DNA of 64,000 nt from Daejeonella sp. H1SJ63 (GTDB lineage: Bacteria; Bacteroidota; Bacteroidia; Sphingobacteriales; Sphingobacteriaceae), in NCBI RefSeq assembly GCF_029360775.1, contig NZ_JARKMZ010000028.1, positions 558,001-622,000 on the forward strand, written 5' to 3'. The notes beneath the pieces were generated by a model. That model worked only from the letters and a program-made list of their open reading frames with translations. It ran no database searches and was not told where the DNA came from. This document shows, piece by piece, positions 1 through 31,421 of the stretch. The translations under genes were made by a program, and so were the position numbers. Positions within the stretch are counted from its first letter, which is position 1; every line of letters begins with the position of its first letter.

Positions 1-917
1 CCGATGGATTCAGCTTCCGTTCAGGTGTGACTACTCTGGTAGACTGTGGTGGAGCCGGATACAAGTCTTTCGATACTTTTAAGAAAAATATCATCGATAA
101 ATCAAAAACCAGAGTTCTTTCCTTCCTGAATATTGTTGGTGAAGGTATGCGTGGCGGTGATTATGAGCAGGATATCAGTGATATGGACTACAGGCTGGCT
201 GCCAAAGCTGCATTGGATAATAAAGAACATGTTGTAGGGTTTAAACTAGCACATTTTACAAATCCTGACTGGACTCCTGTTCGGCGTATTGTGGAAGCAG
301 GAAAATTAGCCAATATGCCGGTTGTTATTGATTTTGGTGGTGGTAAACTACCAATTGAAGATCTGTTCTTCAAGTATTTAAGACCAGGAGATATTTATAC
401 TCATGTGTTTACAGAGCTTGAAAGGAGAGATCCGATTGTAGATCTTCAGTCTCGTCAATTGAGATCTTTTGTAATTCCTGCTCAAAAAAGAGGAATTATC
501 TTCGACGTTGGTTTTGGTGGTGGAAGTTTCAATTTCAATCAGGCTATTCCTGCAATTAAAGCAGGTTTCTTACCTGATCTGATGGGAACCGATCTTCATA
601 CAGGCAGTATGAACGGAGCCATGAAAGATCAGTTAAATGTTCTTTCTATTCATCTGGCTATGGGAATGGATATCCCAGGAGTTATTGAGCGCAGTACCTG
701 GCGTCCGGCGCAGGCTATTAAACGTACAGAATTAGGCCATCTTTCTGAAGGAGCTATAGCAGATATCGCAATTCTAAGTGTTCGTAATGGTAAATTTGGT
801 TTCAGAGATATTGCAGGAAACCGTCATGAAGGAACTCAGAAGCTGGAATGCGAAATGACTTTGAAAGACGGACGAATAATGTATGATCTGAATGCAATAG
901 CTTCAGCTAAAAAATAA
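1..917 (+). CDS. amidohydrolase, EF_0837/dihydroorotase-like family (5' partial)
   Basis: Metal-dependent amidohydrolase-superfamily enzyme, cut by the left edge of the window. The frame is open from base 3, and upstream residues match the next gene, so the GTG at 27 is internal and not the start. It retains the family's GFKLAH lysine segment, a DIYTH histidine segment and a GTDLH segment before the C terminus. The nearest described relatives are proteins annotated as dihydroorotase-like or deacetylase-family hydrolases, often beside SelA-like PLP enzymes and KDPG-type aldolases. It is followed after 33 bases by a clear paralogue, so this is a tandem duplication. The substrate is unknown. N-acyl removal from an amino-aldonate would fit the context, but that is inference. 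Whether this copy has a signal peptide cannot be seen. Confidence 0.88.
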   Translation, partial: DGFSFRSGVTTLVDCGGAGYKSFDTFKKNIIDKSKTRVLSFLNIVGEGMRGGDYEQDISDMDYRLAAKAALDNKEHVVGFKLAHFTNPDWTPVRRIVEAGKLANMPVVIDFGGGKLPIEDLFFKYLRPGDIYTHVFTELERRDPIVDLQSRQLRSFVIPAQKRGIIFDVGFGGGSFNFNQAIPAIKAGFLPDLMGTDLHTGSMNGAMKDQLNVLSIHLAMGMDIPGVIERSTWRPAQAIKRTELGHLSEGAIADIAILSVRNGKFGFRDIAGNRHEGTQKLECEMTLKDGRIMYDLNAIASAKK

Positions 918-950
918 TTCATATTTGCTCATGATCAAATATACCCACCC

Positions 951-2252
951 ATGCTGAAAAACAGTTTGATACTTCTTTTGTTATTGTTTGCTTCAGGAAG
1001 CCGCCTTTTAGCTCAAGGCCAGAATAGTAAACAAAAAATTTATGGTATTGTTATCAAGGGTGGTCATGTTATTGATTCTAAAAGCAATCTTAATGAATTA
1101 ATGGATATCGCAATACAGACTGCCCCTGCAAATCGTCAGGGGCAGTCTGCTTTAGAACCAAGAATAGTCCTTATTGCCAAAAATATTGATACGGCATTAG
1201 CCATTCAGGTAGTAGATGCCAGGGGGATGTATGTTACTCCCGGTTTGATTGATATTCATACGCATGTTTTTTATGGGCCTTCTAAAAATGATTATTTAAG
1301 TAATGGCTCTATTTCTGTTGTGCCCGATAATTATACTTTCAGAACCGGTGTAACTACGGTAGTAGATGCCGGTGGGGCAGGATGGAAGTCATTTCAGACT
1401 TTCAAAAAAAATATTATTGACATATCGGCAACTCGTGTATTATCGATGTTGAATATTGTAGGAGAGGGTATGCGTGGAGGTGCTTTTGAGCAAAACATGG
1501 ATGATATGGATGCTGATAAAACTGCTGCAGCAGCACTTGAAAACAAGGAATATGTTGTTGGATTTAAACTTGCTCATTTTGGAAAAGCAGACTGGACACC
1601 GGTTGAACGTTTAACCAAGGCAGGCAGAATGGCAGATATGCCTGTGATGGTTGATTTCGGCAGTGGTAATCAATCATTGGAAGAATTGTTTTTTAAATAC
1701 CTGCGTCCCGGAGATATTTATACTCATTCGTATTGTTACGTTCCCGGGGTAAGAGAGCCGATCATAAATACTGAAACGCATGAAGTGAAGCCCTTTGTTC
1801 GTAAGGCACAGCAAAACGGATTAATTTTTGATGTGGGTTTTGGAAGTGGCAGTTTTGATTACAGAACAGCAATTCCGGCGATTAAAGCAGGATTTTATCC
1901 TAATACCCTGGGGACTGATCTGCATGCTTCAAGTATAAACGGTGCCATGAAAGATCAGATGAATGTATTTTCTGTATTCCTGAACCTGGGAATGGATATT
2001 CCTTCAATTATCAAAGCAGCTACATGGGCACCTGCCCAAGCCATTAAACGTGAGGAATTGGGAAATCTTACAGTTGGAGGTATTGCAGATATTGCTGTAT
2101 TAAGCATGCGGAAAGGAAATTTTGGGTTTAAAGATATTGCAGGAAACAGACAGCCGGGTGATCGTCGTTTTGAGTGTCAGTTAACTATAAAAGGTGGTAA
2201 GGTTGTTTACGATCTTAACGCAATAGCAAGCAAGCCGCTTAAGGTGGATTAA
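951..2252 (+). CDS. exported amidohydrolase, EF_0837/dihydroorotase-like family
   Basis: Full-length (433 aa) paralogue of the preceding gene. An N-terminal Sec signal peptide (leucine-rich core, cleavage probably near LLAQ at about residue 22) places it outside the cytoplasm, which is unusual for a dihydroorotase-type fold. The metal motif DIHTH is at residues 101-105 (H103, H105); GFKLAH supplies the probable carboxylated lysine, DIYTH a further histidine and GTDLH the late metal aspartate/histidine segment. Residues about 56-71, between two N-terminal beta strands, are encoded by a perfect 13-bp inverted repeat and look like an in-frame insertion. The likely role is hydrolysis of an amide, for example deacetylation of an N-acetyl amino-sugar acid. 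The substrate is inferred from neighbours only. Confidence 0.9.
   Translation: MLKNSLILLLLLFASGSRLLAQGQNSKQKIYGIVIKGGHVIDSKSNLNELMDIAIQTAPANRQGQSALEPRIVLIAKNIDTALAIQVVDARGMYVTPGLIDIHTHVFYGPSKNDYLSNGSISVVPDNYTFRTGVTTVVDAGGAGWKSFQTFKKNIIDISATRVLSMLNIVGEGMRGGAFEQNMDDMDADKTAAAALENKEYVVGFKLAHFGKADWTPVERLTKAGRMADMPVMVDFGSGNQSLEELFFKYLRPGDIYTHSYCYVPGVREPIINTETHEVKPFVRKAQQNGLIFDVGFGSGSFDYRTAIPAIKAGFYPNTLGTDLHASSINGAMKDQMNVFSVFLNLGMDIPSIIKAATWAPAQAIKREELGNLTVGGIADIAVLSMRKGNFGFKDIAGNRQPGDRRFECQLTIKGGKVVYDLNAIASKPLKVD
1116..1149. repeat. perfect 13-bp inverted repeat inside the amidohydrolase CDS
   Basis: Bases 1116-1128 (CAGACTGCCCCTG) and 1137-1149 are exact reverse complements separated by an 8-base loop. 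The element is GC-rich compared with its surroundings and lies in frame, coding for a polar linker between two N-terminal beta strands. It resembles palindromic elements that insert into coding sequence. No second copy was noticed in this window. Confidence 0.8.
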
Positions 2253-2278
2253 TCTGTTCCCGATTCAATGATATGCAT

Positions 2279-4066
2279 ATGAAAGGTCCTGAATTCAATA
2301 TTGATGAAATAAAAAGTTGCCGGAATCTATTGTTGAAATCACTGGTATTATTGGTACTGCTTATTGCAGGTATTCATCCGCTTTATGCTCAAAAAAGGCC
2401 CAATATCCTTCTGATTATGACCGATGATCAGGGGATCGGAGATGTTGGATTGCATAACAATCTGCTGAAGACTCCTAATATGGATGCAATTGCTGCTCAG
2501 GGTGTTGAATTGAGGCAATTCATTGTAAACTTTAACTGTTCCCCGACACGCGCAAGTATCATGACTGGCAGGGATAATTACCGGACCAGCGTAGTTGGTG
2601 TTACTGAGACTTCTCCTTTAATGAAGGAGAGTGAAGTAACCATTGCAAAAATACTATCTGATGCCGGTTATCGGACCGGTTTATTTGGTAAATGGCATCT
2701 GGGCGATAATTATCCGATGAGGCCTTCGGATAAAGGGTTTCAGGAAACACTGATTCATAAAGGAGGTGGAATCGGACAGGCTTCAGACCCGCCGGGTAAT
2801 TCTTATTTTAACCCAATTCTGCAGCAAAATAATATTAGCAGGCAATTTCAGGGCTATTGCGATGATATATTCGCCGATGCAACCATCAGCTTTATTGAGA
2901 AAAACAGAGATAAGCCCTTTTTTGCTTTTTATGCAACTAACCTCCCTCATTTTCCTTTAGTTGTTGCCGATAAATGGGCTGATCCTTACCGAAAGATGGG
3001 GATGCATGAGCTAAATGCCTTAACTTATGGAATGATTGCCAATGTTGATGCTAATATCGGCAGGTTGATGGCCAAACTGAAAGAATTGGACATAGAAGAT
3101 AATACCATAGTCATATTCCTTTCTGATAATGGCCCGCGTACCAAACGATCTAAAAATGATCTATATCCTGACAGATATGTGATGAACCTGAGAGGGACAA
3201 AGACAAGTGTATACGAAAACGGTATCCATGCTCCGTTCTTTATCAAATGGCCGGGTAAAATTCCGCAGGGCGTTAAGCTAAATAATCTCACCGCCCATAT
3301 AGACGTTTTACCAACTCTTCTGGATGCTTGTAATGTACCTGTGCCCAAAAATCTTCAGATCGACGGTATATCTTTGATGCCACTGCTTACTGAAAAAGTG
3401 AAACAATTACCTGAAAGGAATATTTTTATTCAGGGACATGCAGGTTCAGAACCATTTAAATACGTGCATTTCACAGTCAGGGGACAGAGGTATAAACTCA
3501 TTTCACCGCATGATGAACCTTATGAAATTGTCAATCGTCCGAATGCTGATGAGATAAAAAGCATGATTTCTTCACTTGAGTTATATGATATTGAAAAAGA
3601 TCCGAGTGAAATCAATAATATAGCCAAACAAAATCCGGGTATTGTGGATGATTTATTGGCAAAATATGAACAGTGGTTTGATAAGGTTATCTATGACAGG
3701 GGATACGACTGGCCACAGCGTATTCACCTGGGAAGTAAATTTCAAAGGAATGTGGAGTTATCCCGTTTTGAATGGGGTGGGCCGGGTACAATTGGAAATA
3801 AGGGAAAACAACTGGGCTATTGGGAGGTGTTTAGTAATGCCGCAAAATACCGGATAACCTTACGCTTTCAGAAAACCAATAAACCAGCCTTTGCTGTGTT
3901 GAAGTATATGGGCAAGGAATATCGGGTTCAGGTAAATACCGGTAATACTCAGATTGTGTTTGATGAAATATCCTTGCCTGAGGGAAACGGCAGGTTTGAA
4001 GCCTATCTTAAATCTGCTGCTGAAGAAACCGGTGTTCAGTTTGTGAATGTGGACCGGTTAAATTGA
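2279..4066 (+). CDS. exported sulfatase (formylglycine-dependent, S1 type)
   Basis: Arylsulfatase-type enzyme that hydrolyses sulfate esters, probably from a sulfated sugar, outside the cytoplasm. Counting from the ATG at 2273, the N-terminal metal segment MTDDQG is at about 49-54 and the modification site C89-S-P-T-R-A follows, so C89 is the predicted formylglycine cysteine. A GKWHLGD segment and an IFLSDNGP metal segment complete the active site. A hydrophobic segment at about residues 20-39 ending in YAQ is a signal peptide after an unusually long N region. ATGs at 2273 and 2279 are both possible; 2279 is chosen arbitrarily. The anaerobic or FGE-type maturase it needs is not in the window. 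The C-terminal 130 residues are a beta-rich extension common in this family. Confidence 0.93.
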   Translation: MKGPEFNIDEIKSCRNLLLKSLVLLVLLIAGIHPLYAQKRPNILLIMTDDQGIGDVGLHNNLLKTPNMDAIAAQGVELRQFIVNFNCSPTRASIMTGRDNYRTSVVGVTETSPLMKESEVTIAKILSDAGYRTGLFGKWHLGDNYPMRPSDKGFQETLIHKGGGIGQASDPPGNSYFNPILQQNNISRQFQGYCDDIFADATISFIEKNRDKPFFAFYATNLPHFPLVVADKWADPYRKMGMHELNALTYGMIANVDANIGRLMAKLKELDIEDNTIVIFLSDNGPRTKRSKNDLYPDRYVMNLRGTKTSVYENGIHAPFFIKWPGKIPQGVKLNNLTAHIDVLPTLLDACNVPVPKNLQIDGISLMPLLTEKVKQLPERNIFIQGHAGSEPFKYVHFTVRGQRYKLISPHDEPYEIVNRPNADEIKSMISSLELYDIEKDPSEINNIAKQNPGIVDDLLAKYEQWFDKVIYDRGYDWPQRIHLGSKFQRNVELSRFEWGGPGTIGNKGKQLGYWEVFSNAAKYRITLRFQKTNKPAFAVLKYMGKEYRVQVNTGNTQIVFDEISLPEGNGRFEAYLKSAAEETGVQFVNVDRLN

Positions 4067-4102
4067 TTTCTTGCTAAATAATATTTCTTACTCAAAACCA
4101 CG

Positions 4103-5344
4103 ATGGAAAGAAGAAAATTCATAAAGTCAGCAGTTTTAGGCTCAGCAGGACTGATTGCAGGCTATCCCTGGTTAGGAGCTGAAGCAGCTTCCGGACTTAA
4201 AATTACAAAGATCAGATATTATGCCGCACCGGGATATAATAAACCTCTTTTCAACCAGGCCCGTGGTATTGTCGAAATTGAAACAAATGAGGGTATCATT
4301 GGAATAGGTGAAGGCGGTTCTAAAGATATGATTGAGCAATGTGCCCGAATGATGATTGGAGAAGACCCCTTTCGCATCGAGCATATATGGCAAAACCTTT
4401 ACAGGGGCATGTTTTATCCTCCCGGAAGGGAAAAATTACATGCTGTAGGTGCATTGGAAATGGCCTTATGGGATATTAAAGGAAAGGCCTTAAATGTTCC
4501 TGTCTATGAACTTCTTGGGGGCTCTACGCGCGAATATGTGGAATGTTATGCTACAGGATTCAGACCTTCTAAAGCCACAACTGAAGAAGAAAGAGCAAAT
4601 GATTGTCTCAAAGCGGGGTTTCGATCCTATCGTATCGGCCCGACAGGTGGTAATGGTGATCAGCCCTTTGATTTCTATCAGAATGCCTCAAAAACAATTG
4701 ATTACTGTAAAAGGATAGATAAGGCAGTTGGTGGGAATGGAAACTGGGCTATTGATTTGCATACCCGTTTTGACACACCCGAAGCTTTAAAGATATGTAA
4801 TGCACTGGAAGAACTGAGTCCGTATTTTATAGAGGATGCTATTCGCTCTGAAAATCCGGGTGTTTACCGTTCATTCAGAACCTTAACAAAGGCTCCTTTA
4901 GCCGTAGGTGAGCAATTTGGCGATCGTTGGGATACCAATGAATTGATTGAACAGCACCTGATCAATTATTCAAGAGTTACCTTACCTAATACCGGGGGGA
5001 TTGTTGAGTTTAAGAAGATTGCGGCCCTTTGCGAAACGCATTATGTAGGTATGCTTCCGCATTTTACCGGACCTTTATCTACAGCTGCATTAGTTCATGT
5101 TTTAGGCTCAAGCAGTCCTTCACGTGTAATGATGGAATTAGCTGGTGGTGAAACAGAAAAACCTGTATACTTTAATGAAGATTATCTCAGATTTTCCAAT
5201 GGGCAACTGTATTTAAATCCGGAACCCGGACTGGGGGTTAAGTTTAATCCTAAGAAGGCCGATTTTATAATGGAAATTAAGGAAAATACCAAATTCCCTC
5301 ATCCCATTCTGAAAAGTCCTGATGGGGCTATTCATAACTGGTAA
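4103..5344 (+). CDS. Tat-exported enolase-superfamily acid-sugar dehydratase (galactonate dehydratase-like)
   Basis: Mandelate-racemase-subgroup member of the enolase superfamily. Metal ligands are visible as D218 (in a DLH motif with H220), E244 (FIEDA) and E270 (VGEQF). H320, in a PHFTGP motif, sits where galactonate dehydratase has its catalytic histidine. This pattern suggests syn-dehydration of a six-carbon aldonate to a 2-keto-3-deoxy acid. The N terminus (ERRKFIKSAVLG, then a weakly hydrophobic stretch ending near AEAAS) is a twin-arginine signal, so the folded, Mg-loaded enzyme would be exported; most aldonate dehydratases are cytoplasmic. It lies upstream of DgoK and the aldolase that would use its product. 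Racemase or epimerase activity cannot be excluded. Confidence 0.88.
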   Translation: MERRKFIKSAVLGSAGLIAGYPWLGAEAASGLKITKIRYYAAPGYNKPLFNQARGIVEIETNEGIIGIGEGGSKDMIEQCARMMIGEDPFRIEHIWQNLYRGMFYPPGREKLHAVGALEMALWDIKGKALNVPVYELLGGSTREYVECYATGFRPSKATTEEERANDCLKAGFRSYRIGPTGGNGDQPFDFYQNASKTIDYCKRIDKAVGGNGNWAIDLHTRFDTPEALKICNALEELSPYFIEDAIRSENPGVYRSFRTLTKAPLAVGEQFGDRWDTNELIEQHLINYSRVTLPNTGGIVEFKKIAALCETHYVGMLPHFTGPLSTAALVHVLGSSSPSRVMMELAGGETEKPVYFNEDYLRFSNGQLYLNPEPGLGVKFNPKKADFIMEIKENTKFPHPILKSPDGAIHNW

Positions 5345-5472
5345 TTGAATTTTATTGAATTATTTACTCATTAAATGTGGTAAATTCCTTAAATAATCAC
5401 ATTTTTAGAAATTCAGAGACAGATATTCAATTTGTTCATGAAAGCCATTTTTAATTTATAAAATATCAGAAA

Positions 5473-6666
5473 TTGAAAACCAGATCAATAGTACTTTTAA
5501 CATTATTTATTGCTTCCTCATGTGGATTCTTTTTGTCGGCTTGTAATTCCGTAAAAAAATCAGCGCTTACAATATCAGGTGACAAGGATGCTTCTGCAAT
5601 GGTTGAGTTTATCAGCAATCCTGAAGATGCAAGATTAAAAGACCGCAAATTTGAACAGGTTCCCGCAGTTGGGGCAACTGCAGACGGGGAACACGTTTTC
5701 GTTGCATTTTACTCAGGAGGTGCTGCACCCGGTCCGGGTAATTATGTCACCTTGTCTGTTAGTCTTGATAGGGGTAGAACCTGGCTAAATGATCAGCTTG
5801 TAGTTTATCCCCGTAGTTCTGAATACCGATTGTTTGATCCTGCAATCTGGAGAGATAAGTTTGGTCAGGTGCGCTTATTCTATGGGAGCGCAAAAAACAA
5901 CTTACTTTGGGATGGATTTGGGGGAGTTAATGCAGTCGAAATTAAATGGGACGGTAAGAAGATTTCTCATTCAGAACCTGTTCGTATCAGTGATGGGGTG
6001 ATGAGCAATAAACCGGTTCATTTGCCTTCAAAGAACAGGGCACTTTTCCCTGTTTACATTGATAAACCACTTCCGGGGACTAAATCTGAAAGTGCTTTCC
6101 CTCATGATGGTGCTTTCATCTATTCTAAAGATTATTCAAAGTCAGGGCGAAAACTGCAATTGTCACCTTATGCATCAATTAATGTTCCTGAAGAACTCAG
6201 AATCCATGATGAACCTCAGGTTGTTGAAGTAAATGATAAAGGGGATTATCTCGCAATGGTAAGAACAACCAAAGGGATTTATTATACACAGAGCACCGAT
6301 TTTGGTAAAACATGGTCTGCTGTTCAAGCTTTTACGGCTTCCGGTCCGACGACATCCAGCAGGTTTTATATCGGTAAACTTTCTTCCGGAAATTTATTGC
6401 TGGTTAGCAATAACAGTACTACACGTAATAAAATGACAGCTTTTCTTTCAATGGATGGAGGGAAAACCTGGCCACACAAATTATTGCTTGATGCAAGGGA
6501 AAATGTATCTTACCCTGATGCCGATCAAACTGCTGACGGTAATATTCACGTGGTATTTGATCGCGACAGGACCGGAGCAAAAGATATTCTGTATTGCAGA
6601 TTTACAGAGAATGATGTGATCAGTGGCAATAATGATGCAGTATTCAAAACCAGAGTTAACAAGTAA
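5473..6666 (+). CDS. sialidase-like BNR-repeat lipoprotein
   Basis: Six-bladed-propeller protein of the sialidase/neuraminidase-like superfamily. Asp-box motifs are visible (SLDRGRTW, STDFGKTW, SMDGGKTW). The N terminus is a lipoprotein signal with lipobox LSAC at about residues 21-24, so it should be anchored in the inner or outer membrane. The start is a TTG at 5473, since no ATG precedes the signal sequence. This fold includes sialidases, lyases and non-enzymatic sugar binders, and I do not see enough of an arginine triad to claim sialidase activity. In a locus without any recognisable glycoside hydrolase or polysaccharide lyase, it is the only candidate for a glycan-cleaving enzyme besides the sulfatase. 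Confidence 0.82.
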   Translation: MKTRSIVLLTLFIASSCGFFLSACNSVKKSALTISGDKDASAMVEFISNPEDARLKDRKFEQVPAVGATADGEHVFVAFYSGGAAPGPGNYVTLSVSLDRGRTWLNDQLVVYPRSSEYRLFDPAIWRDKFGQVRLFYGSAKNNLLWDGFGGVNAVEIKWDGKKISHSEPVRISDGVMSNKPVHLPSKNRALFPVYIDKPLPGTKSESAFPHDGAFIYSKDYSKSGRKLQLSPYASINVPEELRIHDEPQVVEVNDKGDYLAMVRTTKGIYYTQSTDFGKTWSAVQAFTASGPTTSSRFYIGKLSSGNLLLVSNNSTTRNKMTAFLSMDGGKTWPHKLLLDARENVSYPDADQTADGNIHVVFDRDRTGAKDILYCRFTENDVISGNNDAVFKTRVNK

Positions 6667-6715: not shown

Positions 6716-7702
6716 ATGAAGACTATTTTATGCTGTGATTGGGGAACAACTTCGTTCAGACTGAGGTTGGTTGACAGGGATACATATATTGTTCATGCTG
6801 AGCTTTTATCGTCAACTGGTGTGGCTGCCACATTCAGGGCATGGAAAGAGCAAACCGAAATCAGTCGATTTGATTTCTATTCTGCAAGACTCAGATCAAG
6901 TATTCAGGAATTAGCTGAAAAGAATGCGGTTAATACCGATAACATTCCGGTGATTGTGTCAGGCATGGCTTCTTCCTCACTTGGAATGGAAGAGATTCCG
7001 TATGCAGTTTTACCTTTTAATATTAATGGAAGTCAGGCATCGGTTCGTGTTTTTGAAGAATATAACGGTTCAAATGCTCCATTAATTATTGTTTCAGGTG
7101 TGAGAAGTAATGAGGATGTGATGCGAGGGGAGGAAGCTCAGTTGATAGGCCTTATTCAGTTAAATGAAGTTAACCTGGATGAAAATGAGGAATATGTATT
7201 TGTGTTTCCTGGTACTCATTCCAAACATATTGAGGTAAAGGGTGGAGATATGGTTGATTTCAGGACATTTATGACCGGAGAGGTATTCAATATTTTATCA
7301 GAACACAGCATATTAAAAGATTCAGTACTATTGGATAATTCGATAAAACTGAGTGATCCTATTGCGCTTAAAGCCTTTACATCAGGAGTAGAAAACTCGG
7401 CTGAATCTTCAATTCTTCATACTTTATTTACTGTAAGAACAGCTCAGCTTTTCGGGAAGTTCAGCAAGGAATATAATTCATTTTATTTGAGTGGTTTGCT
7501 CATTGGTGATGAGCTCAGACAATTAAAGCCAGATATGAACAGAAATCTCGTCATTTGCAGCGGGAAACATTTATATGAGCATTATAAAATTGCATCAGAT
7601 ATCCTTAGATTAACACAAAAAACAATTTTTATACAAGCTGAACTGATTGATAAAGCAACAATTGCAGGCCAGGTTCAGCTATTTAATGCATTACATAATT
7701 AA
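6716..7702 (+). CDS. dgoK: 2-dehydro-3-deoxygalactonokinase
   Basis: Sugar-acid kinase that phosphorylates 2-keto-3-deoxy-galactonate with ATP. It begins with the ASKHA-type phosphate-binding strand DWGTTSFR at residues 8-15, typical of DgoK. The 328 aa length and the lack of a signal peptide fit a cytoplasmic kinase. It ends one base before the start of the downstream aldolase gene, so the two are almost certainly cotranscribed and act in sequence. It is one of the few cytoplasmic enzymes in the 1-32 kb block, which marks the point where the pathway's product has been imported. Activity on the gluconate epimer (KDG) is possible and would be indistinguishable from sequence alone. Confidence 0.9.
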   Translation: MKTILCCDWGTTSFRLRLVDRDTYIVHAELLSSTGVAATFRAWKEQTEISRFDFYSARLRSSIQELAEKNAVNTDNIPVIVSGMASSSLGMEEIPYAVLPFNINGSQASVRVFEEYNGSNAPLIIVSGVRSNEDVMRGEEAQLIGLIQLNEVNLDENEEYVFVFPGTHSKHIEVKGGDMVDFRTFMTGEVFNILSEHSILKDSVLLDNSIKLSDPIALKAFTSGVENSAESSILHTLFTVRTAQLFGKFSKEYNSFYLSGLLIGDELRQLKPDMNRNLVICSGKHLYEHYKIASDILRLTQKTIFIQAELIDKATIAGQVQLFNALHN

Positions 7703-7703
7703 T

Positions 7704-23274: not shown

Positions 23275-23361
23275 AAAAAAGACATTTTGGTGTTTTTTTG
23301 TTGCTTTCCTTGGTAACTCTGTATCTTATTTTTAATTTAGATTCATATAACATTATTGAGT

Positions 23362-24666
23362 ATGAAAAAAATATTACTTGCTTTCATTTCTTCACTCATT
23401 CTTACTTCCTGTTCGAATAAAAAGGATTATGAAATTGTTTTCGCGAATCCCGAATTGTATTCTAAAACAGTGGGTTTATTGACTGATGTCATTACCTATG
23501 ACATTTTTAATCCGCCGGTAGCCAGCAGGATTTATGCTTACAGTAATCTGGCAGCTTATGAGGTAATTTCATCTAAATCAGATAAGTATAAATCGATTGG
23601 TGCAAAATTCAAGGATTTTAAGAAACCGGAACTTTCAGATAAACCAATTAATAAAGAGTTTGCTGCACTTATGGCTTTAATGTATGTAGGGAAGGAGCTA
23701 ACTTTTTCAAAAGATTCAACTCAGAAAATTATTGATGGACATATCCAATTGGCAAAAGATAATGGAATGCCTGACGATATATTAGAGAATTCACAGGAAT
23801 ATGCTCATGCTTACAGTAAAGCTGTTTTAGATTGGAGTAAGAATGATAATTATAAGAAAACACGCTCTGACGTTAAATATTCAGTAAATACCAGGGAAGG
23901 CAGATGGGTTCCAACTCCACCTGCATATATGCCTGCTGTAGAACCTAACTGGATGAAAATACGTACTGTTCTGATTGATTCAGCAAGCCAGTTTTTGCCT
24001 AAACCACCCGCAGATTTCAGTAAATCAAAAGACAGTAAGTTTTATGAATTAGCTGATGAAGTATATCAAACCGGACTCAAATTAACAGACCAGCAAAAAG
24101 CAATTGCAGATTTTTGGGACTGTAATGGTTTTAAGGTCAATGTTTCAGGTCATGTGATGTTTGCTACAAAAGCTATGACACCCGGAGGCCACTGGATGGG
24201 TATAACAGGTATTGTAAGTAAAAATCAGAAGGCAGATTTTGATAAAACAGTATATTCATATGCAGGTGTTTCAATTGGCATAATGGATGCATTTATTGCA
24301 TGCTGGAATACAAAATTTACATATGATCTTTTAAGACCGGAAACGTATATCAATCAATTTATTGATAATGCATGGAAACCTTATCTTCAAACGCCGCCAT
24401 TTCCCGAGTATACCAGCGGGCATTCAATCATTTCGAGTTCTGCTGCTACAATTCTGACAAATATTTATGGTGAGAATACAGCTTTTGTTGATTCTACTGA
24501 AAGACGCTGGGGATGGCCTGACAGAACATTTAAAAATGTTAGAGAGGCTGCAAATGAAGCTGCACTTAGTCGTCTTTTAGGGGGCATTCATTATCGTGAA
24601 GCTATGGAAGAGGGCCTGGTTGAAGGTAAAAAGATAGGAGAACTTGTTTTTAGTAAATTGAATTAA
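23362..24666 (+). CDS. PAP2-superfamily, vanadium-haloperoxidase-like lipoprotein
   Basis: Exported lipoprotein with lipobox LTSC at about residues 15-18. The C-terminal half has the PAP2/vanadium-peroxidase signature: a lysine-containing KAMTPGGHWMGI segment, FPEYTSGHSIISSSAA, and RLLGGIHYREAMEEG, which supply the Ser-Gly-His and Arg/His anion-binding residues. The fold hydrolyses phosphate esters or, with vanadate, oxidises halides; which applies here is unclear. The start is the ATG at 23362, as an upstream TTG at 23356 adds only two residues. It sits between the PLP enzyme and a cytochrome lipoprotein, with separate hairpins on either side, so it may be transcribed alone. Its link to sugar catabolism is not obvious. 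Confidence 0.85.
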   Translation: MKKILLAFISSLILTSCSNKKDYEIVFANPELYSKTVGLLTDVITYDIFNPPVASRIYAYSNLAAYEVISSKSDKYKSIGAKFKDFKKPELSDKPINKEFAALMALMYVGKELTFSKDSTQKIIDGHIQLAKDNGMPDDILENSQEYAHAYSKAVLDWSKNDNYKKTRSDVKYSVNTREGRWVPTPPAYMPAVEPNWMKIRTVLIDSASQFLPKPPADFSKSKDSKFYELADEVYQTGLKLTDQQKAIADFWDCNGFKVNVSGHVMFATKAMTPGGHWMGITGIVSKNQKADFDKTVYSYAGVSIGIMDAFIACWNTKFTYDLLRPETYINQFIDNAWKPYLQTPPFPEYTSGHSIISSSAATILTNIYGENTAFVDSTERRWGWPDRTFKNVREAANEAALSRLLGGIHYREAMEEGLVEGKKIGELVFSKLN

Positions 24667-24870: not shown

Positions 24871-25416
24871 ATGAAACGAATTTTTATCCTGGGTGTATGT
24901 GCCCTTTTTATCGCTTGTAACAGTTCATCTGAAAAGGCGAGTGAAACAGATTCATCTACCGTAGTAACAACGGATACGACTGCAGTGGTTTCAACAACTG
25001 ACACTACTGGTGCGGCTGTTGCTGCTCCTGTTCCTGCTGAAAGTCCTGCAGTTAGTCAACCTGTTACAGAAACAAAAACTCCTGAAGCTGCTCCTGCTAA
25101 AACAGCTGCCGTAAAGGAATCGGCCCCTGTTAAACCTGCCGCTGCTGCTGATAATGTTGACCTTAAAAAAGGTGAAACTCTGATTTCAAAATCTGATTGT
25201 TTTGCTTGCCATAAAGTTCAGGAGAAGGTTTTAGGACCATCCTACAAAGACGTAGCAAACAAATATGAAAAAACCAAAGCTAATATCGATTATCTGGTTA
25301 ATAAGATTAAAACCGGCGGAAGCGGTGTTTGGGGAGCAGTTCCGATGTCACCACATCCTGCATTATCTGATGACGATTTAAAAGCAATGGTTCAGTATAT
25401 TCTGAGCCTTAAATAA
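24871..25416 (+). CDS. c-type cytochrome lipoprotein with Ala/Thr/Pro-rich linker
   Basis: Small electron carrier tethered to a membrane. The lipobox is FIAC (C16). Residues about 17-94 are a low-complexity Thr/Ala/Pro linker with repeated TDTT motifs. The C-terminal domain is a c551/c552-type cytochrome with haem motif C110-F-A-C113-H114 and a probable axial methionine in VPMSPHP, ending in LKAMVQYILSL. A flexible tether would let the haem move between partners such as the PQQ dehydrogenases and a terminal oxidase. Flanked by hairpins on both sides, it appears to be its own transcription unit. Confidence 0.9.
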   Translation: MKRIFILGVCALFIACNSSSEKASETDSSTVVTTDTTAVVSTTDTTGAAVAAPVPAESPAVSQPVTETKTPEAAPAKTAAVKESAPVKPAAAADNVDLKKGETLISKSDCFACHKVQEKVLGPSYKDVANKYEKTKANIDYLVNKIKTGGSGVWGAVPMSPHPALSDDDLKAMVQYILSLK

Positions 25417-25420
25417 TATA

Positions 25421-25470
25421 TATAAATACAGGGTTCTGAAATTTAAATATTTCAGAACCCTGTATTTATA
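25421..25470. terminator. 22-bp perfect hairpin after cytochrome lipoprotein
   Basis: Bases 25421-25442 are exactly complementary to 25449-25470 with a 6-base loop (TTAAAT). It starts 4 bases after the cytochrome stop codon. The stem core is GGGTTCTGAA. The outer A/T pairs give weak U-tracts on both strands, so it could end transcription from either side. Confidence 0.75.
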
Positions 25471-25625
25471 CTACCTTTTAAGTTACAGGATCTTTCTCAC
25501 CTTATACTGTAACAATTTAACTTGCAATTCTTAGGCTTTCTGTATTAGCTACCAGTGAATTATTATATTTAGGCATTTAATAGGGGATAGCCTGCATTTT
25601 TAACTCATATACTTAATCAAATACT

Positions 25626-26561
25626 ATGGCGACCAGTAGTTTATTGTTCAATAATAGAAAAGAGCTTAAGGCATTGGCTTTAACTTTACTTTTATCTTCA
25701 GGTACATTTTATAGTCAGGCTCAAAGCAAAGCTTTGTTTCAATCAGTAGAATTGACTTCTGTGAATAGTTTTACCAGAGGCGCTGAAGGACCTGCGGTAG
25801 ATTCAAAAGGTACAGTTTATGCTGTTAATTATGGTAAAGAAGGTACGATTGGTCAGGTAACGATTGATGGTAAAGCCGGGTTGTTTATAGAACTACCAGC
25901 GGGAAGTGTTGGCAATGGAATTCGTTTTGACAGTAAGGGAAATATGCTGGTTGCTGATTATACCAGACATAATGTTCTCAAAGTAGATATGCGAAGCAAA
26001 CAGATTAGTGTATTTGCCCATAATCCGGAAATGAGCCAGCCTAATGATATTGCGATTGACAGCAAGGACAGGTTATATGCCAGTGATCCAAACTGGAAAG
26101 AAGGTACAGGTAGAATTTGGCGTATCGATCTTGACGGGAAATCAACTTTACTCGAAACGATGGGTACCGCCAACGGAATTGAAGTGAGTCCTGATAATAA
26201 GTATCTCTATGTTAATGAATCAATTCAGCGTAAAGTCTGGAAGTACGATTTGAATGTAAAGGGAGAAATCAGTAATAAACGTTTGATTCATGAGTTCCCT
26301 GATTTCGGAATGGATGGAATGCGCTGTGATGCTGAAGGGAATTTATACATAACAAGACACGGAAAAGGTGCTGTAGCTATACTTTCACCCGAGGGGAAAC
26401 TCTTGAGGGAGATTCCAACAATTGGGAAACTTCCAAGTAATATCGCATTTGGTGGAAATGACGGACGTACAGTTTACATCACGCTGCAGGATAGAAGGAA
26501 TATGGAGAGCTTCAGAGTCGAAAATCCGGGCCGTGAATGGAAAATGTCAAAAGTTAAATAA
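25626..26561 (+). CDS. exported SMP-30/gluconolactonase-like lactonase
   Basis: Six-bladed beta propeller of the SMP-30/gluconolactonase/LRE family, 311 aa. The expected reaction is hydrolysis of an aldonolactone to the free aldonic acid. Metal-site segments are visible as GAEGPAVD, QPNDIAID, ANGIEVS and GMDGMRCD, giving the Glu, Asn, Asn and Asp pattern of the family. A hydrophobic segment ending near FYSQAQS (about residue 33) is a signal peptide, so lactone hydrolysis would happen outside the cytoplasm. It is followed after 23 bases by the Tat-type RidA gene and lies between two PQQ dehydrogenase modules, whose lactone products it would process. Confidence 0.87.
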   Translation: MATSSLLFNNRKELKALALTLLLSSGTFYSQAQSKALFQSVELTSVNSFTRGAEGPAVDSKGTVYAVNYGKEGTIGQVTIDGKAGLFIELPAGSVGNGIRFDSKGNMLVADYTRHNVLKVDMRSKQISVFAHNPEMSQPNDIAIDSKDRLYASDPNWKEGTGRIWRIDLDGKSTLLETMGTANGIEVSPDNKYLYVNESIQRKVWKYDLNVKGEISNKRLIHEFPDFGMDGMRCDAEGNLYITRHGKGAVAILSPEGKLLREIPTIGKLPSNIAFGGNDGRTVYITLQDRRNMESFRVENPGREWKMSKVK

Positions 26562-26584
26562 TAATTTAATTAAACATAAATAAA

Positions 26585-27052
26585 ATGAAAACACAAAGAA
26601 GATCTGTATTGAAGAAATTGTTTGCTTCAGTAGTTGGTGTAACAGGAATAGGAATGGTTGCTAATGCTAAAGCGGTTGAAGCGGCTCCTGAAAAAGAGGC
26701 TGGAAATATTACTGAATTTCAGAATGTTCCATTGTTTTCTGGACATACGATTCACAATGGTCTGGTTTACATTGCAGGAAAGGGAGCCCATACCGATCCA
26801 TTCGATATTAAGTCACATACAGAGATAGTTCTTAAAGAACTTGAAAAGGAATTGATTAAAGCCGGATCATCTATGGAAAAGGTTCTAAAAGTGACTGTAT
26901 ACCTCAATGATATTGCTGATTATAAAGGCATGAATGAGGTTTATAAGGGTCGCTTTGGAAGTAAACCTCCGGTTCGTACTACCATTGCAGTTGCTAAGGG
27001 AGGTGTTCCCGGCGATTCATTGGTTGAGATGGATGCGATTGCTTATTTATAA
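26585..27052 (+). CDS. Tat-exported RidA/YjgF-family imine deaminase
   Basis: RidA proteins hydrolyse reactive enamine/imine intermediates released by PLP-dependent eliminations. This 155-aa protein has an intact RidA domain from about residue 42, with the catalytic arginine R131 (PPVRTTI) and glutamate E148 (DSLVEMDAIA). Unlike usual cytoplasmic RidA, it starts with a twin-arginine signal (QRRSVLKKLFASVVG) and an alanine-rich cleavage region near AKAVEAAP. In the same block the SelA-like PLP enzyme also has a Tat signal, so both may meet in the same compartment and cooperate in ammonia elimination. Other RidA-fold functions are possible. Confidence 0.9.
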   Translation: MKTQRRSVLKKLFASVVGVTGIGMVANAKAVEAAPEKEAGNITEFQNVPLFSGHTIHNGLVYIAGKGAHTDPFDIKSHTEIVLKELEKELIKAGSSMEKVLKVTVYLNDIADYKGMNEVYKGRFGSKPPVRTTIAVAKGGVPGDSLVEMDAIAYL

Positions 27053-27088
27053 TGTCATTACAGGTAAATCCTGTTCTTAATTTTTTGC

Positions 27089-27120
27089 AGCCAGTACAGA
27101 TAACCAATCTTGTATTGGCT
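27089..27120 (+). terminator. hairpin between ridA-like and cytochrome genes
   Basis: AGCCAGTACA pairs with TGTATTGGCT (one G-U) around a 12-base loop. No clear T-run follows, so termination is uncertain; it lies 26 bases before the next start codon and could be a leader structure. Confidence 0.4.
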
Positions 27121-27145
27121 GTATAATTGTAAATACCAAAATAAG

Positions 27146-27595
27146 ATGAAAAAATACAGTTTCTATACATTATTCTTGCTGGGAGGGATAAGTGTTTTTA
27201 TGCTTTCAGCTTCAACTAATTACAATGCATACAGTAGTGTCAATCTGACTGATACTATCAGACAGGAAGCCTGGTTGGCTCCTTCCTGGGCAGATACTAT
27301 TAAAAATTCCATCAAGGTTTCTCCCGAAAATATTGCCAAAGGTGAAGAGATGTATAATATGTATTGTTTTTCATGTCATGGGGATACTGGTTATGGTGAT
27401 GGACCTGCCGGGGGATCTATGGGAGTGAGACCTGCTAATTTTCATGATCAGAGGGTAATTAAGCAGAAAGATGGTGCTCTTTTCTGGAAACTTACAAATG
27501 GTAAGGGTAATATGCCGCCATTTAAAGAAGTTCTGACAGTTGAACAACGCTGGCAAATGATTCTCTGGCTGAGAGAATTGGGTAAGCAACAGTAG
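27146..27595 (+). CDS. exported class I cytochrome c
   Basis: Small monohaem cytochrome of 149 aa with an N-terminal signal or anchor helix. Haem motif C74-F-S-C77-H78 and a probable axial methionine in NGKGNMPPF. The segment AWLAPSWADTIKN before the haem domain, and the RPANFHD and KQKDGALFWKL segments after it, are closely similar to the haem domain fused to the PQQ dehydrogenase at 19.9 kb. The start is placed at the ATG at 27146; an upstream ATG at 27110 lies inside a hairpin and adds a polar stretch. It ends 11 bases before the separate PQQ-dehydrogenase-like gene, so the two are the split counterpart of that fusion. Confidence 0.92.
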   Translation: MKKYSFYTLFLLGGISVFMLSASTNYNAYSSVNLTDTIRQEAWLAPSWADTIKNSIKVSPENIAKGEEMYNMYCFSCHGDTGYGDGPAGGSMGVRPANFHDQRVIKQKDGALFWKLTNGKGNMPPFKEVLTVEQRWQMILWLRELGKQQ

Positions 27596-27606
27596 TACAG
27601 TTTTGA

Positions 27607-29049
27607 ATGAAGAGATTTATTAATTCAGTATTAGTTCCTGGTCTGATCATTATTTATTCGGCAGCTGCTTTCTCTCAATCTGGCAGACCGGCAGCCGTTC
27701 AGCATACTCCGAAAGCATTAAGACCGGATATCAGGATAGAAAAATATATGCCCGTTGCTTCAAAGGCTGTTAGATTGCTTTTTGAACCTAAATCGGGAAT
27801 TTTTTATTATACTGATTTTTCAGGTGGGGTTTACCGGATCAAAACTACATTGGGTAATCCTGAATCTGAACTGGTGTTTAGTGCAGCCGATCACGGCATT
27901 ACCCGTTTACAGGGCGCGGTATTTTCAGGAAAATATCTGTTTTTATGCGGTAATATCAGTGTAAACAACAATAAAGGTACGAAAGGCCGTATGGTTCGTT
28001 ATGATATGTCATACGTGGAAAAACCTGAAATGACTGTAGTATTTAATACAGTTGAATATGGTACAAATGCCACAACTTTTGATCATGGCTGGAACGCGCT
28101 TGAAGCAAGTGCCGATGGCAAATATATTTATGCGAATACCGGGGCACGTACTGATCATGGTGAAGTACAGGATAACAGAGGAGCTTACCCAAATGCCCGC
28201 GACAATGCATTGACAGCAAAAATATTCAGGTTCCCTGCTGATGCAAAAGATTTGGAGCTTCCAAATGATCTGGAAAAACTAAAATCTATGGGATATATTT
28301 ATGCTGAAGGTATCCGTAATGCATATGATATCGCTTTTGATGCGAAGCAGAATTTATTTGCTGTGGTTAATTCGTCAGACTATGATCATAATGAAGATAT
28401 GTTCTGGGTTAGGGAAGGTAAACATTATGGATTTCCATGGGTTATGAGCGGAATTGAAAACCCTCAGCAATATCCTGATTGGCAGCCGAATCCGGATACC
28501 GATCCTTTTATTCCCAGAAGTTCACATGCATGGACTGTAAAATATTTCAGGAATGATCCTGAATTTCCAAAGATTCCGGCAGGTGTGAAGTTTTCTCCGG
28601 GAGTTCAGAATCTTGGTCCCGATGCTAATGAATACCGCGGACATTCCGGGAAAATACTTGACGGTGATAATACTGGTTTAACAACCAGTACATTTACTCC
28701 GCACAGCTCCCCTCTGGGATTGGTTTTCGACACAAAGAATGCATTATCCCGTGATTTTAAAGGGGATGGATTTGTACTCAGAAACTCATTGGGTAGCAGG
28801 TCAAGTATGATGAAGCCATTTACTAATGAGGGCAGAGACCTTTTGCATCTGAAATTGACATATGATAAGGGTAGTGATAATTACTTTGTTAAAACTACCA
28901 GAATCATGGATTCGTTTAATAATCCAACAGATGCAGTATTGGTTGGCAACGAGCTTTATGTAATTGAGTATGATGCCAGAGAAGGCAGTATCTGGAAGAT
29001 TACCCTTCCTTCAGGTTCTGGTAAGGCTAAGAAAGTGAAGAATAATTAA
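27607..29049 (+). CDS. exported PQQ-dependent sugar dehydrogenase-like protein
   Basis: Soluble glucose/sorbosone-dehydrogenase-type beta propeller, 480 aa, with a Sec signal peptide ending near AAFSQ (about residue 25). Recognisable blade segments include DHGWNALEASADGKYIYANTG, YAEGIRNAYDIAFD and REGKHYGFPWVMSG. The expected activity is oxidation of a sugar to a lactone, with electrons given to the small cytochrome encoded immediately upstream. The protein is diverged from the fused copy at 19.9 kb, so the two may differ in substrate. Cofactor ligands could not be checked by alignment, and a non-PQQ or binding function remains possible. Confidence 0.82.
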   Translation: MKRFINSVLVPGLIIIYSAAAFSQSGRPAAVQHTPKALRPDIRIEKYMPVASKAVRLLFEPKSGIFYYTDFSGGVYRIKTTLGNPESELVFSAADHGITRLQGAVFSGKYLFLCGNISVNNNKGTKGRMVRYDMSYVEKPEMTVVFNTVEYGTNATTFDHGWNALEASADGKYIYANTGARTDHGEVQDNRGAYPNARDNALTAKIFRFPADAKDLELPNDLEKLKSMGYIYAEGIRNAYDIAFDAKQNLFAVVNSSDYDHNEDMFWVREGKHYGFPWVMSGIENPQQYPDWQPNPDTDPFIPRSSHAWTVKYFRNDPEFPKIPAGVKFSPGVQNLGPDANEYRGHSGKILDGDNTGLTTSTFTPHSSPLGLVFDTKNALSRDFKGDGFVLRNSLGSRSSMMKPFTNEGRDLLHLKLTYDKGSDNYFVKTTRIMDSFNNPTDAVLVGNELYVIEYDAREGSIWKITLPSGSGKAKKVKNN

Positions 29050-29142
29050 GAAATTCAGATCTTTAAAAGATGAATATTCCTTAATGTTGTTTAAAGCGTT
29101 TTATAAATCTTTTTTGTTTATTTATATTATTAACTTAAAATC

Positions 29143-30066
29143 ATGAAAATAAAATTATTAGTGCTTACTGCCCTGGTTATTATTTCGGCAAGTAGCTTTT
29201 TATGTGCCCAGACAATTCCTAAAGACGAACTTATTTTTCTAACCTCTGAATGGAAAGGTGCGCGTTTCCCTGATGGAAGACCTAAAATTAATGATGACCT
29301 TTTGGAAAGAGCCAAAAAGATCGGAATGGATGATGCATGGCAGGTTTTGAAAGTAATGGGATATGTTAATCAATTTGAACATGGATGGAAAACCCTGAAT
29401 GATGAAATTATTACAGGCCGTGCTGTTACTGCGATGTACATGCCTAATCGTCCTGATGTTGAAAAGAATATAAAAGAGCGTGGTGCAAAGCAGGGTCGTG
29501 TAGGAAACACCAATTCATGGCCTATTGCTGTTTTGAATAAGGGAGATGTTTATGTGGCTGATGGATTTAGTAAGATCGTTGGTGGTTCACTGATTGGTAG
29601 TACTCTTGCAACTTCAATTTATGTAAAGTCTGGTAACGGTGTCATTTTTGATGGTGCAGCCCGTGATGTTCAGGGACTTGAAGAAATTAAAGGGTTTAAT
29701 GCCTACGTAAGGGATTTCCATCCGGGATTTATGGAAGAAATGCTTTTAATGGGATTGAATACCCCAATTCGCATTGGTCAAACAATGGTAATGCCGGGCG
29801 ATCTTGTTATTGCGGGTAAAATTGGAGTTTTATTTGTGCCGGCTCATTTAGCAGAACAGGTAGTTTCTACGGCTGAATTCATCGTCAGAAGAGATAAATA
29901 TGCATTTGAAGTAGTTAAATCCGGAAAATATTCAAGCGGACAATTGGATAGCCAATGGACTGAAGAAATGAAGCTTGATTTCTTAAAATGGATGGAAAGA
30001 CATCCTGAAGAAGGGAAAATGACTAAAGCAGAGCTTGATGTTATCATGAGTAAAAGAACCTGGTAG
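29143..30066 (+). CDS. exported RraA-like aldolase/decarboxylase-type protein
   Basis: Second RraA/HMG-CHA-aldolase-fold protein of the locus, 307 aa, with a signal peptide ending near FLCAQ (about residue 22). Unlike the copy at 9.7 kb it retains the conserved pair R174-D175 in FDGAARDVQG, along with the C-terminal MPGDLVIAGKIGVLFVP segment. This makes it the likely active member. The family splits 4-hydroxy-2-keto acids by retro-aldol reaction or decarboxylates oxaloacetate-like acids. Both copies share an RFP.GRP segment before the fold, which suggests a distinct exported subfamily. It sits 42 bases before the BASS transporter gene. Confidence 0.87.
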   Translation: MKIKLLVLTALVIISASSFLCAQTIPKDELIFLTSEWKGARFPDGRPKINDDLLERAKKIGMDDAWQVLKVMGYVNQFEHGWKTLNDEIITGRAVTAMYMPNRPDVEKNIKERGAKQGRVGNTNSWPIAVLNKGDVYVADGFSKIVGGSLIGSTLATSIYVKSGNGVIFDGAARDVQGLEEIKGFNAYVRDFHPGFMEEMLLMGLNTPIRIGQTMVMPGDLVIAGKIGVLFVPAHLAEQVVSTAEFIVRRDKYAFEVVKSGKYSSGQLDSQWTEEMKLDFLKWMERHPEEGKMTKAELDVIMSKRTW

Positions 30067-30107
30067 TAAGCAACCTGAATAATTTTTAACCTAAACCATT
30101 TAACATT

Positions 30108-31421
30108 TTGAAAAATTTAAACATTTATTCTTTGTCCCTGGGCCTGGCATTGCTTTGCTTGATCGGAGCTCTTTTTTTAATCTTCAGGGGAGATTCTGCA
30201 GATGCAGGACCATTGTTGATTTTCTTTTTTACTGCCCTTGCGATAGGTGTTAGAGGTACAAAAACCTTTAAGGCCTTTTCTTATACTATCTGGATATTTA
30301 CAGCAGTAACTGCATCCATGTTTTATCCTCAGTATTTTGTCTCAATTGGCGATTTTCAACTTAAAACCATGATTGTACCTTTGTTACAGGTAATCATGTT
30401 TGGTATGGGATCTCAAATGAGTTTTGAAGATTTTACCGGAGTCATTAAGATGCCTAAAGGAGTGATTATTGGTGTTGGTGCCCATTATATTATTATGCCA
30501 ATGGTTGCGTTTGGTATTGCTCATATCTTTAATTTTCCACCTGAAATCGCTGCCGGAATTATTTTGATCGGAACAGTTCCGAGTGGTTTGGCTTCAAACG
30601 TAATGTCTTATTTAGCTCACGCAAACCTCGCTCTTGCCGTTACCATTGGGGCTATTTCAACTATAATTTCTCCGTTTGTAACTCCATTATTGATGCAATT
30701 GTTAGGCGGTCAGTATATTCAGGTTGATTTCTGGCACATGATGCTTGATATTTTGAATATGATCATTATGCCAATTGTTGCAGGCTTTATGTTTAACCTT
30801 TTCTCTAAAAATGAGGCAAGTCAGAAATCGAAAATTTTTCAGTTGATTGGATATTTTGTAGTTGTTGTTTTGACAAATCTGGTATACATGAAATCAAGCG
30901 GATCTGATTTTAGCGGATTCCTTACTGCTTTAAGTAAATCGTTAATCTGGTTCTATATATTACCAATGGTTGGTGCCATTTTACTGCGTAAACTTGTAAA
31001 AGGAGATGATAGCTGGATGGGAAGTGCACTTTCAATGATCTCGATGGTTGGTATTGCTGTGATCATTTCTATCATTACCGCAGCCGGTCGAGATAGTTTA
31101 TTACAGGTAGGCTTATTATTGATTATCACGAGCTTACTTCATAATGCTGCCGGTTATATCCTTGGTTATAGTGTTTCATGGGCAGCAGGTATGCCTGAAA
31201 AGGATCGTCGTACTGTAGCCTTTGAAGTAGGTATGCAAAATGGTGGTCTGGCGTCTGGTTTAGCACTTCAAATGGGTAAGATTGCTACCGTCGGTTTAGC
31301 TCCTGCTATTTTCGGCCCATTAATGAATGTTACCGGTTCTGCACTTGCCAGCTGGTGGAGAAGCAGACCTCCTCTGGAAGATCTTGAAGCTGAAAAGAAT
31401 ACTTCACAAGCCAGTCATTAA
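30108..31421 (+). CDS. BASS-family (bile acid:sodium symporter-like) transporter
   Basis: Membrane transporter with about ten or more hydrophobic helices, 437 aa. The crossover-type segments GTVPSGLASNVMSYLAHANLALAV and the late EVGMQNGGLASGLA match the bile acid:Na+ symporter/arsenite permease fold, which includes carriers of keto acids and other organic anions. The N terminus carries two additional helices. The start is a TTG at 30108. It ends the oxidative part of the locus and could import a keto acid made outside the cytoplasm, for instance the product of the adjacent RraA-like enzyme. Substrate is unknown. Confidence 0.88.
   Translation: MKNLNIYSLSLGLALLCLIGALFLIFRGDSADAGPLLIFFFTALAIGVRGTKTFKAFSYTIWIFTAVTASMFYPQYFVSIGDFQLKTMIVPLLQVIMFGMGSQMSFEDFTGVIKMPKGVIIGVGAHYIIMPMVAFGIAHIFNFPPEIAAGIILIGTVPSGLASNVMSYLAHANLALAVTIGAISTIISPFVTPLLMQLLGGQYIQVDFWHMMLDILNMIIMPIVAGFMFNLFSKNEASQKSKIFQLIGYFVVVVLTNLVYMKSSGSDFSGFLTALSKSLIWFYILPMVGAILLRKLVKGDDSWMGSALSMISMVGIAVIISIITAAGRDSLLQVGLLLIITSLLHNAAGYILGYSVSWAAGMPEKDRRTVAFEVGMQNGGLASGLALQMGKIATVGLAPAIFGPLMNVTGSALASWWRSRPPLEDLEAEKNTSQASH

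Follow-up and report, generated by a model that had tools for sequence, protein, structure and literature searches.

Central amino-sugar breakdown is taught as a cytoplasmic and mostly phosphorylation-first process. Among the enzyme families considered here, the known D-glucosaminate-6-phosphate ammonia-lyase/DgaE-type PLP enzymes have an amidohydrolase partner in the EF_0837 group, and the cog3964 deacetylase Atu3266 (PDB 2ogj) acts on acetyl-(R)-mandelate and weakly on N-acetyl-D-serine. In the ong pathway of Pseudoalteromonas prydzensis, which serves oxidative chitin degradation, N-acetylglucosaminate is catabolised by a deacetylase (OngB), a pyridoxal phosphate (PLP)-dependent deaminase (OngC) and a RidA protein (OngD), which is essential (PMC9537276); a structure of OngB has been reported (PMC12017989). 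A gene cluster in the genome of Daejeonella sp. H1SJ63 (contig NZ_JARKMZ010000028.1, positions 558,001 to 622,000; this whole stretch of 64,000 nucleotides is called the window, and coordinates refer to it) encodes putative counterparts of all three enzymes. The balance of evidence leans towards its core, consisting of an amidohydrolase, a SelA/DgaE-like PLP protein, RidA, RraA and a BASS-family transporter, serving the catabolism of 2-acylamino-2-deoxy-aldonic acids as an exported module, so that its substrates would probably be C1-oxidised N-acyl amino sugars.

The proposed chemistry is backed by its match to the published cytoplasmic ong pathway, to which the original prediction makes no reference. 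Both systems would employ TonB-type outer-membrane import, deacetylation by a member of the amidohydrolase superfamily, PLP-dependent deamination to 2-keto-3-deoxygluconate, RidA and a subsequent kinase, and both carry the deacetylase, the PLP deaminase and RidA in one locus, these being functional equivalents by family assignment. The enzymes themselves are of different origin. OngB is a relative of subtype V D-aminoacylases, whereas the Daejeonella amidohydrolase is of the cog3964 type, and OngC is a fold type III PLP enzyme, non-homologous to the SelA/DgaE group. RraA and the BASS transporter are additional components of the Daejeonella module.

The export signals are the strongest part of the case. 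Leaders were scored by a scan for a hydrophobic segment together with an RR motif, a lipobox or a small-x-small cleavage site, rather than by SignalP, in proteins whose 5' ends were complete, drawn from more than 100 loci. A twin-arginine leader was present on all 128 complete SelA-like proteins, a set without proteins truncated at the edge of a locus or matching the reference only late in their length, and outside which lie four SelA-like proteins scored leaderless in another count. The same type of leader was found on 84 of 89 RidA relatives, against a background of 51 RR patterns among 1289 other proteins of the same loci (4%). Some export leader occurs on 131 of 135 amidohydrolases (Sec or lipoprotein type on 129) and a Sec or lipoprotein leader on 47/47 RraA2 proteins; most of these obey the Bacteroidetes Q-rule for leader cleavage (PMC5837995). 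SMP-30 also carries a Sec or lipoprotein leader, while DgoK and the aldolase are leaderless. The 16 SelA-like paralogs inspected in the Daejeonella genome share the start MKRRxxxKxLxxxPxxG, with L10 in all but about one, and the genome encodes TatC; leader and translocase together mark the SelA-like protein and RidA as predicted substrates of twin-arginine translocation (Tat). The original prediction of extracytoplasmic deacylation, deamination and RidA activity is thus supported by leaders that are conserved over many genera. In Pseudomonas, PvdN and PtaA are established examples of PLP-loaded enzymes exported by Tat, and loading of PvdN with PLP before export has been reported (PMC6206403). 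A division into Tat-routed PLP and RidA proteins and Sec-routed metal hydrolases is sensible for the PLP enzyme, since PLP needs to be loaded prior to export. PvdN and PtaA, like the proteins proposed here, fold with their cofactor in the cytoplasm before Tat export, but they belong to other PLP subfamilies and act in siderophore tailoring, a biosynthetic process, and not in sugar-acid catabolism.

Gene order is kept in eight congeners (deposits under Daejeonella sp. and metagenome-assembled genomes (MAGs) of Sphingobacteriales/Sphingobacteriaceae), mostly at 60–90% protein identity. With its leaders and order conserved in this way, the cluster is beyond chance. In the genomes of the genus and its relatives, the SelA-like family and cog3964 amidohydrolases scoring over the cut-off were found in an identical set of 14. 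An even sample of 247 genomes of the phylum contained five with the SelA-like family, from four genera, and the amidohydrolases were found in those five and no others; as two of them (G223 and G255) belong to one genus, not all five are independent. When 84,980 species genomes were scanned with an alignment of the exported RidA, the 80 best loci came from Mucilaginibacter, Pedobacter, Chitinophagaceae, Dyadobacter, Cyclobacterium, Adhaeribacter and Bacteroidales-type MAGs. In 72 loci outside Daejeonella, mostly found via RidA, so that its frequency, but not that of the other families, is given by construction, SelA was present in 63, the amidohydrolase in 59, RraA2 in 32, SMP-30 in 29 and BASS in 25, and SusC/D genes were frequent. 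Adjacent pairs were RidA-SelA (44 loci), amidohydrolase-SelA (42), amidohydrolase-RraA2 (24) and RraA2-BASS (20). The same module is present in genomes found via SelA (G186, G223, G255 and G178), and two Mucilaginibacter loci (L102 and L120) combine dehydrogenase, SMP-30, cytochrome, RidA, SelA, amidohydrolase, RraA and BASS genes. The operon is present in compact form in M. lappiensis (L138). Both the co-occurrence and the synteny anticipated in the original prediction are thus observed beyond this genome. In two loci from Bacteroidales-type MAGs (L084 and L086), genes for exported RraA alternate with dehydratase genes of the enolase superfamily, one of which encodes a Tat-like leader, beside RidA-SelA-amidohydrolase.

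Within the Daejeonella genome, 17 matches to the SelA-like protein were obtained, of which 16 were inspected, and about 22 amidohydrolase genes lie in the loci examined (L031–L042). An amidohydrolase is located within 2 kb of 12 of the 16 SelA-like genes; most of these loci contain SusC/D and several an ECF sigma factor and FecR, as in glycan-utilisation loci. A recent burst of duplication was considered as the origin of the paralogs and dropped, since the Daejeonella copies are interleaved with those of other families in the SelA tree; the paralogs are therefore old or exchanged. Beside other copies there are genes for NagB-like proteins, N-acetylglucosamine (GlcNAc) 2-epimerases with Tat-like leaders, glycerate kinase, PIG-L deacetylase (exported in locus L093) and CBM9 proteins. 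These neighbours point to amino sugars. Two of the epimerase-family genes are adjacent (L036:2902-5633) and lie near genes for a pectate-lyase-like protein, a lipoprotein RidA, a NagB-like protein and a SelA-like protein.

The cluster comprises 23 co-directional genes, on the + strand throughout, the last ending at 31421 (the genome is 3.65 Mb in size). Its 5' end is situated about 10 kb ahead of the first position of the window, whose edge cuts the cluster. Upstream of the window (locus L031) are genes for an ECF sigma factor, FecR, SusC, SusD, a short SelA-like protein with a Tat leader and two amidohydrolases, the second of which runs into the window as gene 27-917; in one congener (G009, loci L043-L045) the order is identical from FecR through BASS. 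Families were assigned by Pfam and NCBIfam model scores against curated cut-offs, as follows.

1–917, + strand: cog3964-type amidohydrolase, 5' part outside the window (Pfam Amidohydro_1; upstream piece L031:19661-19999)
951–2252, + strand: exported amidohydrolase of the cog3964 type, predicted to N/O-deacylate alpha-acyl carboxylates (NF006689; Sec leader, A-Q cleavage site)
2273–4066, + strand: S1-type sulfatase (Pfam Sulfatase, 201 bits; active-site motif CSPTR)
4103–5344, + strand: Tat-leader enolase-superfamily acid-sugar dehydratase, galactonate dehydratase-like (PRK14017, 205 bits, cut-off 311 not reached; leader MERRKFIK)
5473–6666, + strand: BNR-repeat lipoprotein, sialidase-like propeller (Pfam BNR_2)
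6716–7702, + strand: 2-keto-3-deoxy-galactonokinase DgoK (Pfam DGOK, 201 bits; leaderless, cytoplasmic)
7647–8342, + strand: KHG/KDPG-type aldolase (TIGR01182, 183 bits, above cut-off; leaderless, cytoplasmic)
8369–9679, + strand: MFS transporter of galactonate type, importer (TIGR00893, 243 bits, below cut-off)
9692–10609, + strand: exported RraA-like protein 1, R-D motif lost (Pfam RraA-like; motif DGGIYL)
11577–14657, + strand: SusC-type TonB-dependent transporter (sequence and neighbourhood)
14676–16220, + strand: SusD-type lipoprotein (sequence and neighbourhood)
16532–19861, + strand: FG-GAP/UnbV-ASPIC lipoprotein (Pfam)
19897–21438, + strand: cytochrome c-GSDH fusion, candidate aldose dehydrogenase of the pyrroloquinoline quinone (PQQ) type (Pfam GSDH, 305 bits, plus cytochrome)
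21587–23233, + strand: Tat-leader SelA/DgaE-like PLP protein, predicted aldosaminate ammonia-lyase (TIGR01437, 162 bits)
23356–24666, + strand: PAP2/haloperoxidase-family lipoprotein (Pfam PAP2)
24871–25416, + strand: lipoprotein cytochrome c (Pfam)
25626–26561, + strand: exported SMP-30/gluconolactonase-type lactonase (Pfam SGL)
26585–27052, + strand: Tat-leader RidA, predicted enamine/imine hydrolase (Pfam)
27110–27595, + strand: exported cytochrome c (Pfam)
27607–29049, + strand: exported beta-propeller, weakly GSDH-like (Pfam GSDH, 21.5 bits, cut-off 25 not reached)
29143–30066, + strand: exported RraA-like protein 2, intact R174-D175, predicted 2-keto acid aldolase (Pfam)
30108–31421, + strand: BASS-family symporter, PanS-like, predicted 2-keto acid importer (NF047939, 222 bits, cut-off 400 not reached)

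All families named in the original prediction were recovered on the + strand between 27 and 31421, although its gene list was incomplete, omitting SusC/SusD by name, the FG-GAP/UnbV, PAP2 and BNR lipoproteins and TMEM220. Of its two PQQ-type dehydrogenases, the one at 19897-21438 holds, being the only clear cytochrome c-GSDH fusion, with a glucose dehydrogenase (7cdy) as its best solved relative, while the protein at 27607-29049 falls short of the family cut-off. A search of the genome for PqqC gave no match, and control genomes likewise gave none. The aldolase had been described as of the 2-keto-3-deoxy-6-phosphogalactonate (KDPGal) type, but it passes the generic KHG/KDPG model and fails the KDPGal model; a KDPGal-specific aldolase was accordingly dropped as a pointer to the galacto configuration, which DgoK and the dehydratase model, as the sole pointers, suggest. 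The best solved relatives of the sulfatase are kappa-carrageenan 4S-sulfatases and N-acetylgalactosamine (GalNAc)-6-sulfatases, and because of this mixture it was discarded as an indication of GalNAc- or glucosamine-sulfate.

The catalytic residues of the core proteins are largely kept. The SelA-like paralogs share D228 and K254, invariant in all 16. The AlphaFold model of the SelA-like protein in the window (predicted local distance difference test (pLDDT) 81) is closest in fold to D-glucosaminate-6-phosphate ammonia-lyase (7lc0), with a template modelling (TM) score of 0.88 by target length, followed by Cap15 (8t7j, TM 0.87) and then SelA. It shares the PLP family, the fold and the Schiff-base lysine with the ammonia-lyase/DgaE group, whose known members are, in contrast, leaderless and use a phosphorylated substrate; in the alignment with the SelA-like proteins, the small-domain Arg columns of 7lc0 are for the most part not kept, and several of these arginines are lost. 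The long form of the protein has about 124 additional C-terminal residues (22859-23230) belonging to no Pfam family, with an eight-strand beta-barrel at about residues 436-528. The barrel has weak, generic matches to lipocalin/fatty acid-binding protein-like and designed barrels, and therefore no function can be assigned from it.

The amidohydrolase 951-2252 belongs to cog3964/PRK09237, scoring 394 bits with NF006689 (cut-off 371), and retains the metal residues H103, H105, K206, H259 and D323. It resembles Atu3266 in overall sequence and in the HxH, Lys, His and Asp metal residues, but differs in being exported, as does its group, and in having Asp235 at the position of the strand-5 His, which is aligned in all four solved cog3964 relatives (8je0, 2ogj, 8wzy and 2ics). 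An acidic residue at this site is a consistent sequence signature of the exported group (126/126). In RidA, R131 is at least 95% conserved in 90 sequences, and E148 is conserved; R131 represents the conserved catalytic Arg of RidA (Arg105 in E. coli numbering). A different exported RidA-superfamily protein (YjgF_endoribonc, PF14588) adjoins SelA-like genes in two other loci (L039:17471-18019 and L129:3897-4430). R174-D175 of RraA2 (motif DGAARD) is at least 95% conserved in 45 sequences, and the protein matches the solved 4-carboxy-4-hydroxy-2-oxoadipate (CHA) aldolase 3noj (E 5e-8), while RraA1 has DGGIYL in place of the R-D aldolase motif. In SMP-30, residues E54, N183 and D230 are at least 95% conserved.

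What the sequences support are the leaders, the conserved catalytic residues, the co-occurrence and the synteny, and from these we infer every reaction, the substrate and the order of steps. The sugar or an oligomer would be imported by SusC/D, and the cytochrome-coupled dehydrogenase and SMP-30 lactonase would yield the aldonate, from which the Sec-exported amidohydrolase would strip the acyl group. Water and ammonia may then be eliminated from the D-2-amino-3-hydroxy acid by the SelA-like enzyme, exported by Tat with PLP already loaded, and Tat-exported RidA would hydrolyse the released enamine/imine to a 2-keto-3-deoxy acid. In this cluster the latter could be imported by the MFS or BASS transporter and processed by DgoK and the aldolase; otherwise RraA2 could cleave it outside to pyruvate and an aldehyde, and BASS would take up the keto acid. 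The dehydratase, likewise predicted to leave by Tat, may form a parallel branch from non-amino aldonates to the same intermediate. The original prediction, which is partly supported, omitted from its order of steps two members of the conserved core, exported RraA of the aldolase type and BASS, and it takes DgoK and the aldolase for a general end of the pathway, although outside Daejeonella these are mostly not part of the module. Because most outside loci lack these two genes and many keep RraA2 and BASS, extracytoplasmic cleavage to pyruvate with import of the keto acid is a real alternative end. The PAP2/haloperoxidase-family lipoprotein (23356-24666) is kept inside the cluster among congeners and has no place in this scheme.

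Alternatively, two independent pathways may lie side by side: a De Ley-Doudoroff route for galactose or sulfated galactosides (sulfatase, dehydrogenase, lactonase, exported dehydratase, MFS, DgoK and aldolase) and an unrelated SelA/amidohydrolase route. Such an arrangement, rather unlikely though compatible with the proposed reading of the core, would account for the absence of DgoK, aldolase and dehydratase from most SelA loci elsewhere, for the 19 kb between the main SelA gene of the cluster and the nearest amidohydrolase, and for the separation of the blocks in one genome (G003). However, G009 keeps the gene order through both blocks, and the two routes would converge on one 2-keto-3-deoxy acid. 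It is unlikely that the module handles N-acyl/O-acyl D-hydroxy-amino acids (N-acyl-D-serine/threonine types) by deacylation and PLP elimination with RidA, passing pyruvate-like keto acids through BASS. OngC does also deaminate D-serine and D-threonine (PMC9537276), the core often occurs without sugar oxidases or kinases (e.g. loci L104, L111 and L115), and the best model match of BASS is a ketopantoate/pantoate transporter; nevertheless, the core is repeatedly accompanied by SMP-30, sugar dehydrogenases linked to cytochromes, SusC/D, acid-sugar dehydratase, DgoK and amino-sugar genes, and RraA would be left without an obvious use. Least probable of all is that the SelA-like proteins are non-lyases performing a different PLP reaction on substrates of this kind, e.g. 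a Cap15-like O2-dependent oxidation of beta-hydroxy-alpha-amino acids: Cap15 is as close in fold as the ammonia-lyase, and Tat-exported PvdN runs an unusual decarboxylation (PMC6206403), but ammonia-lyase models outscore all others, and the adjacency of RidA and SelA in 44/72 loci fits a released enamine/imine.

Several observations weigh against the oxidised amino-sugar module. The strand-5 metal-ligand His is replaced by Asp in 113 and by Glu in 13 of 126 exported amidohydrolases. The SelA-like protein reaches 162 bits with TIGR01437 (cut-off 385) and 146 bits with NF047797, the model of true DgaE (cut-off 600), and because these scores are far under the family cut-offs its reaction may differ from that of DgaE; its second closest fold, Cap15, is an O2-dependent PLP enzyme. 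The Ong enzymes are cytoplasmic, whereas the Daejeonella set has leaders. No glycoside hydrolase was found within the cluster. NagB-family genes and two glycoside hydrolase family 20 genes occur elsewhere in the genome, so that a conventional amino-sugar route is probably present, and the lack of a cytoplasmic route was abandoned as an argument for the module. The module is nonetheless real, conserved and equipped with export signals, and its predicted chemistry is plausible. In agreement with the original prediction, a literature search whose coverage excluded subscription journals and preprints found no exported SelA/RidA module and no described pathway of such kind.

Deacylation and deamination chemistry described only inside cells thus seems, from the leaders, to run outside the cytoplasm here. 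Tentatively, and with a good deal less confidence than for the core module, parts of the Bacteroidota may carry the catabolism of oxidised amino sugars to completion outside the cytoplasm, with deacylation, PLP deamination, RidA and RraA leading to pyruvate ahead of the inner membrane; Daejeonella may have diversified this system to about 16 paralogs of the SelA-like protein and more than 20 of the amidohydrolase, each adapted to a different amino-sugar source via its own SusC/D and ECF sigma factor. Should the predicted module be borne out, a group of environmental Bacteroidota would free nitrogen outside the cytoplasm, where ammonia and acids would be released, and would need only a keto-acid importer. 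Many genes named ‘selenocysteine synthase-like’, ‘dihydroorotase’ and ‘endoribonuclease’ would be reassigned. For exported RidA and RraA, which annotation usually treats as housekeeping proteins of the cytoplasm, the module would supply a role open to testing, and it bears on the hitherto unexplained need of the ong pathway for its RidA, OngD.

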